NCBI GenBank assembly: GCA_022821775.1
Contig: JAJECY010000140.1
Location: forward strand, 1 to 37,052
Direction of reading: 5' to 3'
Length of the DNA: 37,052 bases
From: Acidobacteriota bacterium
GTDB taxonomy: Bacteria; Acidobacteriota; Terriglobia; Versatilivoradales; Versatilivoraceae
Positions 3,641 through 34,820 of the stretch are shown piece by piece. The notes beneath the pieces were generated by a model. That model was not told where the DNA came from. It saw only the letters and a program-made list of their open reading frames with translations, and did not search any database. The position numbers and the translations under genes are program-made. Position 1 is the stretch's first letter; the number at the start of each line of letters is the position of its first letter.

Positions 3641-3669
3641 TGGACAAGGGCGGGAGTTTTGTCTATAAT
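3641..3669 (+). promoter_or_regulatory. Predicted sigma70-type promoter for ileS
   Basis: TGGACA at 3641-3646 and a perfect TATAAT at 3664-3669 are separated by 17 bp. The next gene on this strand is ileS at 3980, so the transcript would have a leader of about 300 nt containing the inverted-repeat segment 3690-3937. Confidence 0.7.
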
Positions 3670-3689
3670 TCCGCGTTTTTGTTGGCATT

Positions 3690-3937
3690 AGCCCGCACTT
3701 CTCACCAGGTCGCTGGTCGCATGACGAGAGGTAGTTTATCCTTCAGTACCTTGATTGGCTCCATGTAAAGGGCTTGCAGGTAACAGACGGCGCTGGGCAT
3801 GCCCTGGGTTGTCCTTTTCCCTTCAGCGCGCACATGCTCCCTCGACCGTAGTGACCGCTACGCTCTTCGGTCGCGAGCACGCGCTGAAGGGAAAATTCCT
3901 GCGCCATGATCATGCCCCCTGGTAAGAAATGCGGGCT
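3690..3937. repeat. 248-bp inverted-repeat-bounded segment in the ileS leader (MITE-like or structured leader)
   Basis: The outer 20-bp arms (3690-3709 and 3918-3937) are inverted repeats matching at 18 of 20 positions; the left arm reads AGCCCGCACTTCTCACCAGG. Inside is a second, perfect 15-bp inverted pair, TTTTCCCTTCAGCGC at 3815-3829 and its complement at 3881-3895. Smaller nested hairpins (CGACCG/CGGTCG, CGTAG/CTACG) lie within it. There is no ORF and I see no target duplication. No T-box signature (AGGGTGG-type antiterminator) was found. It could be a small non-autonomous transposable element or a folded 5' leader; the sequence alone does not decide. Confidence 0.6.
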
Positions 3938-3979
3938 GCCGAGCCCCGCCGCAGGAGTTCCCCCTCCGGATTCATCGCC

Positions 3980-6823
3980 ATGAAACTGAAGGACACCATC
4001 AATCTGCCCCGAACCGCCTTTCCGATGAAGGCCAGCCTCCCCAACCTGGAGCCCCGCATTCTGCAACGCTGGGACGAGCTGCAACTGTACCGGAAGATCC
4101 GCGACCTCAGGGCCGGGAGCCCGGTCTTCCTTCTGCACGATGGGCCTCCTTACGCCAATGGGAACATCCATATCGGACACGCCGAGAACAAGATTCTCAA
4201 GGACATCATCGTCAAGTCGAGAACCATGGCGGGTTTCAACGCGCCTTACATCCCCGGATGGGACTGCCACGGACTGCCGATCGAGATCAAGGTCGACCAG
4301 CTGCTCGGCAGAAAGAAGGCCGGTATGACTCGTGTCCAGGTTCGCCGGGAATGCCGGAAGTACGCCGGCAAGTTTGTGGAGCTGCAGAAAAAGGAGTTCA
4401 TCCGACTGGGCATCCTGGGGGATTGGAATGCACCCTATCTCACCATGAGCCACCGCTACGAGGCTGCCATCGCCCGCACCTTCGGCCATTTCGTGAGAGA
4501 GGGGTACGTCTATAAAGGACTGAAACCCGTCCACTGGTGTTGCTCCTGCCGGACGGCTCTGGCCGAAGCCGAGGTCGAATACGAGGACCACACCAGCCCC
4601 TCCATCTACGTCAAGTTTCCCTTGAAGTCGGATCCCTCCCTGCTGGACCCGGCTCTGAGAGGCAGGAGGGTGTCGGTGGTGATCTGGACGACCACCCCCT
4701 GGACTCTGCCCGCCAACCTGGCCATCGCCTTCAACCCCGGTCTGGAGTATTCGGCGGTAGAGGTCGGGGACGAGGTCTATCTGATCGCCTCCGAGCTGGT
4801 GGCGGCCACGGCCGAGGACTGCGGATTCAAGCCCGGAACGACCCTGGCCACCATGGAGGGCAGGAAGCTGGCCGGCCTCGAGACCCGACATCCCTTTCTG
4901 GACCGCCTCTCGCCGGGTCTGCCGGGCGAGCATGTCACCCTGGAGCAGGGAACCGGATGCGTGCACACGGCTCCCGGCCACGGCCATGAAGACTATGCCC
5001 TGGGCAATGCCCATGGTCTGGATGTCTACTGCCCGGTGGACGGTGCAGGGAGGTTCGTGGCCGGCACTCCCCACGTCGAGGGCATGCGCGTCTTCGATGC
5101 CAACCGAACGGTCCTGGAACTGCTCCGCGATCGCAAGTCCTTGCTGGCGGCCGAGACTGTTTCTCACTCCTACCCGCACTGCTGGCGCTGCCACAAGCCC
5201 GTCATCTTCCGCGCGACACCCCAGTGGTTCATCTCCATGGAACACCGAGACCTCAGGGGCAAATCCCTCGAGGCCATCCAGGGCGTCCGCTGGCTCCCGG
5301 AATGGGGGCGGGAGCGCATCTCCGGCATGATCGCCAACCGCCCCGACTGGTGCGTGTCTCGGCAACGGGTCTGGGGGGTTCCCATCACGGCCTTCTACTG
5401 CGACGTCTGCCAGGATCCGCTGCTGGAGCCTGATGCCATTGACCGCGTGGTCGCCATCTTCGAGGAAGAAGGGGCCGATGCCTGGTTCAGCCGTCCCGTC
5501 GAGGACCTGTTGCCTCCCGGCACCCGCTGCCGGGGGTGCGGGGCGGACCGGTTTCGCAAGGAATCCGACATTCTGGACGTCTGGTTCGACTCCGGGGCCA
5601 GCCAGGCGGCAGTGTTGGGCCACCACCCCGATGTCCCCTGGCCGGCCGACATGTACCTGGAAGGAAGCGACCAGTACCGGGGCTGGTTCCACAGTTCCCT
5701 GTTGATCGGAGTGGCTACCAGCCAGGCAGCTCCCTACCGGCAGGTCCTCACCCACGGATGGACGCTGGATGCCGAGGGACACGCCATGTCCAAATCGCGG
5801 GGCAACGTGATCGAGCCGCAAAAGATCGTCAGGAAGGACGGCGCCGAGATCTTGCGGCTGTGGGTGGCGGCCAGCGACTGCAGGGAGGACATTCGCATCT
5901 CTCCCGACCAGATTCGCCGCCTTTCCGACGGTTACCGCAAGTTCCGCAACACGGCTCGTTACATGCTGGGCAACCTCTCGGATTTCTCTCCCGCGGAGCA
6001 TTCGGTGGCAATCCCCGACCTGGAGGAGCTGGACCAGTGGGCCCTGGTGCGCACCAGCCGGCTCCTGGAGAAGGTTTACGGTTGGTATGAAGCTTACGAA
6101 TTCCATCGGATTTACCATCGGGTCTACGATTTCCTGACGGTCGAGCTGAGCTCCTTCTACTTCGACGTCCTCAAGGATCGACTCTATACGGCGGCGCCCG
6201 ATTCGCGTCAGCGGCGATCGGCCCAGACCGTCCTCTACCGTGTCCTGGAAGCGTTGACCCAGGCACTGGCTCCCATCTACAGCTTTACCTGCGAGGAGAT
6301 CTGGGAGCACCTCTCATCCAAGGCCGACAGACCGGCAAGCGTGCACATGGCGCGCTTTGTGCCCGCCGACAGCCTGATCGAAGGACTGTCCTCGCAATCG
6401 CTGAAGCGCCTGGACAATTGGGATCTGCTCATCCGGGTTCGCTCCACCGTGCTGAAGGTGCTGGAGGAGGCTCGCCAGGCCAGGTTCATCGGGAATTCCC
6501 TGGAAGCCAAGGTGACCTTGGCCGGCGAAGATGGCTACGCTCCGATCCTGAAGAGCTACGAAGCGATGCTGCCGGCGCTGCTCATCGTGTCGCAGGTGGA
6601 GTTGGGCGTCCCATCCGGAGAGACACCCTTTGTCGGGGAAGCGGATGGACTGCGGGCTTCGGTGGGCCGTGCCGAGGGGAGAAAGTGCGAGCGCTGCTGG
6701 GCCTACTCCGCCGAAGTTGGAAGCGATCCCGATTTCCCGGCGCTCTGCCCCAGGTGTTCCTCCACACTCAGGGAACTCGGTGTGACGCCCGACCAGCTCG
6801 ACCCGAGCAGGGCGGCGCCCTGA
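3980..6823 (+). CDS. ileS: Isoleucyl-tRNA synthetase
   Basis: This 947-residue class I aminoacyl-tRNA synthetase charges tRNA-Ile in the cytoplasm. The start is the ATG beginning MKLKDTINLPRTAFPMKA, which matches the usual IleRS N-terminus; upstream in-frame codons lie in the inverted-repeat segment. The nucleotide-binding motif GNIHIGH lies near residues 60-66. The CP1 editing domain follows, with TTPWTLPAN near 237. The KMSKS loop appears as HAMSKSRGN near 600, with the first lysine replaced by alanine and the second kept. The anticodon-binding domain follows, and the C-terminus has a four-cysteine zinc site (CERCW, then CPRC). Length and layout fit the bacterial type with a C-terminal zinc finger. 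lspA follows 54 bp downstream, the common ileS-lspA order. Confidence 0.97.
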   Translation: MKLKDTINLPRTAFPMKASLPNLEPRILQRWDELQLYRKIRDLRAGSPVFLLHDGPPYANGNIHIGHAENKILKDIIVKSRTMAGFNAPYIPGWDCHGLPIEIKVDQLLGRKKAGMTRVQVRRECRKYAGKFVELQKKEFIRLGILGDWNAPYLTMSHRYEAAIARTFGHFVREGYVYKGLKPVHWCCSCRTALAEAEVEYEDHTSPSIYVKFPLKSDPSLLDPALRGRRVSVVIWTTTPWTLPANLAIAFNPGLEYSAVEVGDEVYLIASELVAATAEDCGFKPGTTLATMEGRKLAGLETRHPFLDRLSPGLPGEHVTLEQGTGCVHTAPGHGHEDYALGNAHGLDVYCPVDGAGRFVAGTPHVEGMRVFDANRTVLELLRDRKSLLAAETVSHSYPHCWRCHKPVIFRATPQWFISMEHRDLRGKSLEAIQGVRWLPEWGRERISGMIANRPDWCVSRQRVWGVPITAFYCDVCQDPLLEPDAIDRVVAIFEEEGADAWFSRPVEDLLPPGTRCRGCGADRFRKESDILDVWFDSGASQAAVLGHHPDVPWPADMYLEGSDQYRGWFHSSLLIGVATSQAAPYRQVLTHGWTLDAEGHAMSKSRGNVIEPQKIVRKDGAEILRLWVAASDCREDIRISPDQIRRLSDGYRKFRNTARYMLGNLSDFSPAEHSVAIPDLEELDQWALVRTSRLLEKVYGWYEAYEFHRIYHRVYDFLTVELSSFYFDVLKDRLYTAAPDSRQRRSAQTVLYRVLEALTQALAPIYSFTCEEIWEHLSSKADRPASVHMARFVPADSLIEGLSSQSLKRLDNWDLLIRVRSTVLKVLEEARQARFIGNSLEAKVTLAGEDGYAPILKSYEAMLPALLIVSQVELGVPSGETPFVGEADGLRASVGRAEGRKCERCWAYSAEVGSDPDFPALCPRCSSTLRELGVTPDQLDPSRAAP

Positions 6824-11970: not shown

Positions 11971-12385
11971 CCGGGCGGATCATGCGGGAGTGAAACAAGG
12001 GAGGTTCATGGCCTGTCGGGAACAAGATTATTTAACATCGATGCACAGGATATACAGGATTTACAGGACGAGAGCTTCCTGCACGAGAAGCCAGCTCAGA
12101 CGATGATCCGGTGCGGTCTTGCGGATTCCCGGTATGAAAAGCTAGCCGTTTCCTGAAAAGAATCCTGTATATCCTGTGCATCGATGTGAATCAAAAATTT
12201 GCCCATGCTCGACTTTGAACCGGTTTCCAGCCAACAGAAGTCATGGGATGAAGTCTACCCGAGGGCACGGGCCGGGTTGCCGGGCCACAGCCCTGTCGAT
12301 GCGGCTGAGCCGTCCCGCTTCGTGTCCCTTCGTGGTCCTTCGTGTGTCTTCGTGGATAACTCTTTTTCTTTTGTTTCAAATAAGC
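11971..12385 (-). repeat. Composite intergenic element, locus 2 (C-A-F, reversed)
   Basis: Read on the minus strand, module C comes first (12385-12316, with TTATCCACG at 12359-12351), then module A (12187-12034, 154 bp), then F (about 12001-11971). Module A is bounded by inverted ACATCGATG-CACAGGAT arms of about 26-35 bp. Its interior is recognisably homologous to the copy at 32362-32514 (shared GGAAACGGCT, then AATCCGCA, then GTGCAG.A). No module B is seen. The element fills the gap between queE and era, ending 14 bp from the era stop and touching the queE start. No ORF here is convincing. Confidence 0.8.
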
Positions 12386-23526: not shown

Positions 23527-23787
23527 ATGACCCACTTCTATCTCTACCTGTCAATCATCCTGTTAGCCAAAGCGCTCACTCTGGCCGTGGTGGCGTTGAT
23601 CCGACAGCGGCACCGGGAGGACCGCACGGATTGCGGCGTGCGCGACGCTCCCGCACATTCGGAGCGCTTCATCTGCCTTAAGGCCGACCTGAAAGAGGTC
23701 AACCAGGGGGTGTTCCTTTGCCGGATGCGCTTTGCCAATCAGGGAAGTTTGAAGGAGGAAGTTAGAAGTTTGAAGTTAGAAGTTTGA
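23527..23787 (+). CDS. Small predicted membrane protein, function unknown
   Basis: This is an 86-residue ORF. Residues 4-25 (FYLYLSIILLAKALTLAVVALI) form one hydrophobic helix, followed by a basic stretch RQRHREDR and a short soluble part with three cysteines. I do not recognise a family. Support for expression comes from the promoter-like sequence at 23417-23445 and a terminator hairpin at 23870-23889. The last residues (about SLKEEVRSLKLEV) and the TGA stop are encoded by a GAAGTTT heptamer array, so the ancestral 3' end may have been overwritten. The ribosome binding site is weak. It could be a short real gene or a decayed one. Confidence 0.45.
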   Translation: MTHFYLYLSIILLAKALTLAVVALIRQRHREDRTDCGVRDAPAHSERFICLKADLKEVNQGVFLCRMRFANQGSLKEEVRSLKLEV

Positions 23788-23836
23788 AGTTTGAAGTTTG
23801 AAGGAGGAATTTTGAAGTAAGACGTTTGAAAGGGGA
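23744..23836 (+). repeat. Degenerate heptamer array (GAAGTTT type), left arm
   Basis: Repeated GAAGTTT, GAAGTTA and GAAGGAG units run across the end of the small ORF. Together with the unique stretch 23824-23859 they form the left arm of an inverted repeat whose right arm is 24201-24277. The tRNA-Gly gene and its terminator lie between the arms. Confidence 0.8.
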
Positions 23837-23869
23837 AGGGCAGTGTGAGAGGGTTGGAGTCATTGTTGA

Positions 23870-24072: not shown

Positions 24073-24228
24073 ACCGTTTTTGGCTGCCGGAATCTCTCCG
24101 CCCAACCCGGCTGGCGCTTCTCACCCGGACGACCGAGCCCTCCCGCTTCGCTCGTGATTTGACCAGCATCATCAATAAAATGAAGAACAGACAACAGCAG
24201 CTCCAACCTTCTCACACCGCCCTTCCCC

Positions 24229-24277
24229 TTTCAAACTTCAAACTTCTTACTTCAAACTTCAAACTTCCTACTTCGCT
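24229..24277 (-). repeat. Degenerate heptamer array (GAAGTTT type), right arm, entering the hemDE 3' end
   Basis: On the minus strand this reads as GAAGTAG, GAAGTTT, GAAGTTT, GAAGTAA and GAAGTTT units. It encodes the last residues (RKFEV) and the TGA stop of the HemD-HemE fusion, and continues as the right arm of the inverted repeat around tRNA-Gly. Confidence 0.75.
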
Positions 24278-32282: not shown

Positions 32283-32608
32283 TTCTCAAAAAGAGTTATC
32301 CACGAAGGCACACGAAGAGCGACGAAGGGCCACCAAGGGGTTGGAGTTTGATTTTTGATTTACATCGATGCACAGGATGCACAGGATTTTTTCGGGAAAC
32401 GGCTGGCTTGTAATGCAGAGCATCAGCAAATCCGCACACGATCATTGCCCGAGCCGGCATCTGGTGCAGCAGCGTCACCTGCTGGTTATCCTGTGCATCC
32501 TGTGCATCGATGTTAATGATGAACCTTTTCTATTTGTGTTCATTGGTGTCCATTCGTGGTTCATCCTATATACACAATCGGCCGTTTTCCCTCGAATGTT
32601 CCGCCCGG
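32283..32608 (+). repeat. Composite intergenic element, locus 7 (C-A-B-F, complete order)
   Basis: Module C is at 32283-32340 (TTATCCACG at 32296-32304). Module A is at 32362-32514 (153 bp, inverted ACATCGATGCACAGGAT arms). Module B is at 32532-32564 and F at 32585-32608. It fills most of the 590-bp gap between miaB and recN. The remaining sequence (32087-32282) shows no ORF, promoter or RNA that I can support. Confidence 0.85.
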
Positions 32609-34437: not shown

Positions 34438-34553
34438 AGAAGAAGTTTGAAGTTTGAAAGAGGAAGGTTGAAGTTTGAAGGGGGAAGGTTGAAGTTTGAA
34501 GGGAGAAGTTTGAAGTTTGAAGGGAGAGGGTTGAAGGAGGAAAGGGGAAGGAG
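34438..34553 (+). repeat. Degenerate heptamer array (GAAGTTT type) in the recN-tolQ divergent region
   Basis: Runs of GAAGTTT alternate with GAAGGGGG, GAAGGGAG and GGAAAGGGGAAGG blocks, as in the array at 23744-23836. It starts about 60 bp upstream of the recN start. No inverted partner was seen within this gap. The remaining part (34554-34820) shows TTGACG at 34677-34682 but no well-spaced -10 box. Confidence 0.75.
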
Positions 34554-34820
34554 GGGGTGCCTCTTGGGAGCGCGGGCAGGCCGGTCGCCCCCCGGCCGAG
34601 GCAGGTTGAAATACTGGTCGCGACCTGGTGAGAAATCCAGGCTCGGCGGGGACCGAGCCGGTTATTCGGGGGCCGGTTGACGACCCCGAGAGGTCTATGG
34701 TAACTTCCGGCACAACACGGTTGTGACGGGGTTCATTCTGGCAGTCCAGGAAAACGCTGGGGGACGTGTTTGACCATAGAACCGGGCGGTTTGCTCCCTG
34801 TGCTCGCGCAGGGAGCCGAG

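Follow-up and report, generated by a model that had tools for sequence, protein, structure and literature searches.

The analyzed stretch of DNA, hereafter the window, comprises 37,052 nucleotides from an Acidobacteriota bacterium of the class Terriglobia (GenBank assembly GCA_022821775.1, contig JAJECY010000140.1; genome G000, 4.4 Mb in 312 contigs). It encodes IleS, identified as isoleucine–tRNA ligase by TIGR00392 (932 bits versus a cut-off of 621), with lspA downstream and a divergent gene for a protein with a TonB C-terminal domain upstream. An earlier reading of this DNA, made from the sequence alone, had reported a TGGACA-17-TATAAT promoter upstream of ileS, and this promoter is indeed present: TGGACA at 3641–3646 and a TATAAT ending at 3669, separated by 17 bp, match 11 of 12 consensus positions, and a promoter scan found one such site versus 0.1 in shuffles. 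The same reading placed a 248-bp segment (3690–3937) downstream of the promoter, ending 42 bp before the ileS ATG at 3980, and both distances hold, as do the 20-bp outer inverted arms, which are complementary at 18 of 20 positions (3690–3709 and 3918–3937). The segment does lie right after the promoter, but 20 bp from TATAAT and not 21, and the inner inverted pair is perfect but 16 bp long and not 15. Delimited by homology, the element itself spans 3692–3935 (244 bp) between the 4-mers TTAG and CTGC; the lengths of 244 to 248 bp given below for complete copies include 2 bp of flank per end. The features are as follows.

3641–3669, plus strand: ileS promoter TGGACA-17-TATAAT (consensus scan; TATAAT in all seven ileS leaders of the genus)
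3688–3691, no strand: left 4-bp flank TTAG, target-site copy, equal to the single 4-mer of the empty sites in G001, G003 and G006; the 4-bp duplication is shown statistically
3692–3935, plus strand: MITE of 244 bp with IS1380-type ends and no transposase gene (genome copies; ends as in IS1380-family elements)
3692–3709, plus strand: left terminal inverted repeat CCCGCACTTCTCACCAGG (arm pairing, genome-wide end pattern)
3815–3830, plus strand: inner hairpin module, left arm (16 of 16 positions paired; both-side changes at 6 of 16 positions over 40 copies)
3880–3895, plus strand: inner hairpin module, right arm (16 of 16 positions paired with the left arm)
3918–3935, plus strand: right terminal inverted repeat CCTGGTAAGAAATGCGGG (arm pairing, genome-wide end pattern)
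3936–3939, no strand: right 4-bp flank CTGC, unlike the left copy (4 extra bases when filled and empty sites are aligned)
3980–6823, plus strand: ileS, isoleucine–tRNA ligase (start assigned by conservation with congeners)

The right end of the element contains an ATG (3929–3931) in frame with ileS, 17 codons before the conserved start, through which automatic gene callers may annotate ileS too long. Inverted pairs of the kind formed by the outer arms (20 bases, at most two mismatches, within 300 bp) were absent from ten first-order Markov resamples of the window, while the real window holds 65 overlapping pairs by the same criterion. The plus-strand RNA of 3675–3970 has a predicted fold of −130.5 kcal/mol (z −5.5; none of 200 shuffles equally low), and both strands of the segment are predicted to form a long double stem.

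The sequence-only reading had left two possibilities, a MITE in the leader of an essential gene or a dedicated riboregulator, and had taken several identical copies elsewhere to exclude the second. Several lines of evidence bear out the MITE: many copies elsewhere in the genome, empty sites in relatives, a 4-bp target duplication, and an autonomous IS family with matching ends. First, the window's own genome contains at least 44 matches to 3660–3945 (blastn), so a dedicated riboregulator is out by that reading's own standard. Complete copies of 244 to 248 bp are present at 13 of the 30 loci examined in this genome, and several further copies run into contig ends, as expected in short-read assemblies. 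A simple ORF heuristic that tolerates small edge overlaps placed none of the 13 complete copies within a called reading frame (it found no neighbors at one locus). The pattern of the ends, with at most two mismatches, occurs 85 times in G000 versus 0 times for the reversed control, and a looser pattern (three mismatches) occurs 162 times in the single-contig genome G001 versus 3 for the control. Altogether, the family is found in all seven genomes of the genus (G000 to G006). Many of the end matches in G001 are unpaired (96 reverse, 66 forward), perhaps more than decayed copies alone explain. Inspection by eye of 20 places with solo ends in G000 revealed no autonomous element; some of these could pass for the ends of copies that have decayed or that a contig boundary truncates. 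A distant end pair in locus L153, considered as an autonomous element, was dropped; the interval holds an unrelated ORF whose translation, read by eye, looks like a metallo-hydrolase.

The inner hairpin recurs in these copies. For the pairing analysis, we used 40 distinct complete copies, the set of 44 less four duplicates in reverse orientation. In these, 92.8% of cells pair according to the named structure, compared to 91.2 in shuffles and 39–52 when slid. Both-side changes affect 42 cells versus 13.6 in shuffles that keep relatedness, and they occur in 6 of the 16 inner-arm pairs. Because pairing is kept through both-side changes in many copies, the inner hairpin belongs to the element and not to ileS. 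This compensatory pattern supports, but does not prove, conservation of the hairpin; template switching during replication could give the same both-side pattern.

Second, the comparison of leaders in relatives, which the sequence-only reading had also suggested, revealed the same ileS site as filled in three of the seven genomes of the genus (G000, G004 and G005) and empty in four (G001, G002, G003 and G006). The filled site reads GGCATTAG, element, CTGCCGAGCCCC; the empty site reads GGCCTTAGCGAGCCCC in G001, G003 and G006 and GGCCTTGCCGATCCCC in G002. TATAAT is retained in all seven leaders, in G002 with an adjoining run of N, and TAGACA-17-TATAAT lies upstream of ileS in two other genera of the family (loci L064 and L065). 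Retention of the promoter in the empty leaders and in two further genera means that it predates the insertion. The order of filled and empty species is not given by the ileS gene tree (two changes needed; one of seven inner branches fully supported). At a second site (L025 at 1411–1655 and orthologs), a 245-bp element is present in G000 and G005, and a version of 126 to 129 bp, which has these ends but lacks the hairpin module, in G003, G004 and G006; the site is empty with one 4-mer in G001 and G002, while the filled genomes have two 4-mers. The presence of short and long forms at one site implies that the forms can replace each other in place. At a third site (L005), G000 and G005 carry the element; the other five genomes differ there beyond the element, giving no clean empty site.

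Third, the element has a preferred target and duplicates 4 bp of it. Among 101 elements with both ends, drawn from genus loci and GTDB contig matches, the flank consensus is YTAR on either side, and the flanking 4-mers are identical in 38 elements; 100 shuffles that preserve this preference averaged 24.8 and never exceeded 31. In the remaining 63 the 4-mers differ, among them those of the ileS copy (TTAG versus CTGC), and the duplication at the L025 site likewise consists of two unequal 4-mers. One explanation, which we take from piggyBac chemistry as an assumption, is that the excised element carries four bases of the donor site and is pasted with mismatches. The idea of a zero-length target duplication, which came from the G002 leader, was abandoned; filled minus empty leaves four extra bases at two sites.

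Fourth, the ends, CCCGCATTTCTCACC(A/G)GG with target YTAR and 4 bp duplicated, are those of a known family of autonomous elements. Profile searches of G000 and of the single-contig genome G001 detected no IS1380 transposase (PF13701). At first sight this absence in the window's own genome speaks against IS1380, but a class-wide search returned elements with the same ends: PF13701 is present in 102 of 200 genomes of the class, and MITE-type ends flank the transposase gene, 1681 to 1744 bp apart, at 8 of 30 IS1380 loci examined. These eight are the loci with both ends evident; left out of the measurement were L254 (weak right end), L261 and L262 (one end each), L257 (cut by the contig) and the remaining 18 loci, which have no convincing end pair. 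Five of the eight measured elements have identical 4-bp flanks (CTAG, CTAA or TTAA), and NCBIfam assigns each of the three proteins tested to the IS1380 transposases, with scores well beyond the cut-off. Within the genus, transposase fragments are found in five of the seven genomes, and IS1380 relics of 712 to 756 bp with both ends in G003, G005 and G006. Thus, the MITE resembles IS1380-family insertion sequences (NCBIfam NF033539, PF13701) in its terminal repeats, which in that family are such as CCCGCATTTCTCACCAG, and in the 4-bp YTAR duplication; it differs in lacking a transposase gene, in its length of 244 bp versus approximately 1.7 kb, and in an interior that is not clearly similar. In alignments with the eight IS1380 copies from other genomes of the class, only the ends aligned and the body was without clear similarity. 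Judging from these relatives, an IS1380-family transposase is the likely mobilizer, and in G000 the MITE family seems either stranded or separated from a transposase that is missing from the draft.

Altogether, we are highly confident in reading the segment as a non-autonomous MITE that was probably mobilized in trans by a transposase of the IS1380 family. We suggest that such a transposase, now undetected in G000 and G001, acted in an ancestor of the lineages that are filled today and inserted the element downstream of the ileS transcription start, at a TTAG-like site that precedes the ribosome-binding site. The ileS 5' leader would thereby have grown from about 56 to about 304 nt, and the element in it would fold on itself and disturb translation initiation little. 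The ileS copy is most likely tolerated and roughly neutral.

The best-surviving alternative, which we nevertheless regard as improbable, is that the MITE has been co-opted and that the stems of a transcribed 300-nt leader alter the stability, termination or translation of the ileS mRNA in the filled species. The position of the element, between a conserved promoter and the start codon in three of seven species, speaks for this idea, and MITEs elsewhere are reported (PMC4133298, PMC11578231) to be able to change transcripts when co-transcribed; four of the seven species have no element at ileS. Assuming a transcription start ~7 nt after TATAAT, the leader is 303 to 304 nt in filled species versus 56 to 57 nt in empty ones. 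The sequence-only reading expected nested stems to dominate the structure of the leader if transcribed, and as a prediction this is right: the element is predicted to fold largely as a closed unit, and the start-codon region folds within the range of the empty leaders. The predicted unpaired probability of the start codon is 0–0.28 in the three filled leaders versus 0.01–0.83 in the four empty ones; that of AGGAG in G000 and G004 is about as in the empty leaders, and in G005 it is lower. The predictions for filled leaders thus fall inside the empty-leader range or at its closed end, which fits a tolerated insertion and leaves room for a modest effect. Inside the element on the plus strand, a short GC stem with a T-rich stretch behind it (3793–3807) also favors co-option; this weak stem could cost some read-through.

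Divergence between orthologous copies bears on the same question. We compared 76 copies from six genomes; to be included, a copy had to contain the inner hairpin and be flanked on either side by 250 bp or more, which left out short-type and contig-end copies. The ileS copies of G000 and G005 differ at 1 of 244 sites, and their 600-bp flanks at 59 of 599 and 72 of 600. This conservation, which would suit co-option, counts against a plain neutral-insertion expectation, though two copies not upstream of ileS are just as little diverged (1/241 and 3/240); over the three shared sites (L001, L005 and L025 versus L088, L305 and L293), the element differs at 5 of 725 positions and the flanks at 274 of 3599. 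Selection on the ileS copy, proposed from the 1/244 value, was not accepted, as two copies elsewhere share this near-identity and the G003–G006 pairs do not: at five sites shared by G003 and G006, the element diverges no less than its flanks (65/1213 versus 230/5833). The ileS copy of G004 differs from that of G000 at 16 of 243 sites (flanks 128/1199) and from that of G005 at 15 of 243 (flanks 129/1200). With this divergence in the G003–G006 pairs and in G004, a general constraint on the element is not supported. The near-identity of the G000 and G005 copies could stem from short-tract recombination between the two species or from repeat reads that were mixed when the metagenomes were assembled. 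The element in the ileS leader is probably without dedicated function, and an effect on ileS is possible but unsupported.

Another type of mobile element, either a REP/BIME system with a Y1 transposase or a Tc/mariner MITE, appears to us a shade less probable again. Palindromic, intergenic repeats at high copy number and the many single, unpaired ends in G000 and G001 would suit such an element, but complete copies have two ends at a nearly fixed distance, the duplication is 4 bp of YTAR, and the ends match those of IS1380-family elements almost exactly. The idea of a dedicated ileS riboregulator, whether T-box-like or new, draws on the strong fold (z −5.5) upstream of an aminoacyl-tRNA synthetase gene, but it is refuted by dispersed copies that carry the same fold away from ileS and by the empty sites of four of seven congeners, and an Rfam search of the leader gave no match at the gathering threshold (four sub-threshold matches are to unrelated families, none of them T-box). 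The likeness to T-box leaders ends with a folded leader upstream of ileS; the element differs from them as a dispersed repeat that has no Rfam match and is absent in sister species.

Searched over GTDB contigs, the end pattern CCYGGTRAGAAATGCGGGYT occurs in at least 118 stretches; those listed are in records titled Gamma-, Alpha- and Deltaproteobacteria, Acidobacteria, Nitrospira, Actinomycetota, Verrucomicrobia and Planctomycetota, in which metagenome bins may be contaminated. Among the matches listed are 75 paired-end elements, and six of these give good alignments with the window's copy along most of their own length or along its right part (L151, L152, L239, L139, L251 and L175). The short L215 aligns over the left half, a few gammaproteobacterial elements align weakly (~72%) over 84 to 99 bp of the right part, and the rest align mainly at the ends. 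With few matches to the body and many to the ends, the ends are therefore common far more widely than the body. Tentatively, and with more doubt than conviction, we propose that a single set of IS1380 ends (CCYGGTGAGAAATGCGGG, target YTAR) drives a super-group of MITEs that has gone undescribed, spans six or more bacterial phyla and has bodies of ~60 to 390 bp that are for the most part unrelated. In this genus, the body would be built from modules, namely a 130-bp core that occurs alone or together with a 115-bp hairpin maintained by compensatory change, and in three species one copy would have been established as the 5' leader of an essential gene.

The segment is a new MITE family of a known kind. 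Bacterial MITEs such as Correia elements, which PMC4133298 mentions, and the IS1182-type MITEPye1 (PMC11578231) resemble the present element in being short and mostly intergenic, with inverted ends, flanking direct repeats, long stem-loops and presumed mobilization in trans; they differ in that the ends of the present MITE belong to IS1380. In PMC10813416, IS1380 transposases form the outgroup of piggyBac trees. The MITE shares with piggyBac a TTAA-like 4-bp target, but here the target is mostly CTAG and the flanking 4-mers often differ. Among the open-licence papers examined that name both IS1380 and MITEs, none describes an IS1380 MITE; in the open-licence literature, the string GAGAAATGCGGG occurred only in an unrelated paper and the genus name Versatilivorator was not mentioned. 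Within that literature, the family appears undescribed. Its recognition replaces a candidate riboregulator of an essential gene with a traceable insertion event, and the filled and empty ileS leaders of sister species offer a natural comparison for a 244-bp structured insertion in a housekeeping mRNA. It also links widespread palindromic repeats that could easily pass for RNA genes to a single transposase family, which allows genome scans to mask or name them.

The window holds other repeats. Two copies of a 160-bp palindromic element (12032–12190 and 32358–32517), with 30-bp arms that contain ACATCGATGCACAGGAT and are 97% complementary, probably represent a second MITE family; locus L117 holds a similar stretch. 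The heptad GAAGTTT is tandemly repeated at 23744–23868, 24192–24274 and 34438–34536. Downstream of the last of these arrays, 34624–34643 is a lone decayed end of the family found at ileS (two mismatches), and the first two arrays are inverted around the only tRNA that Rfam found in the window.
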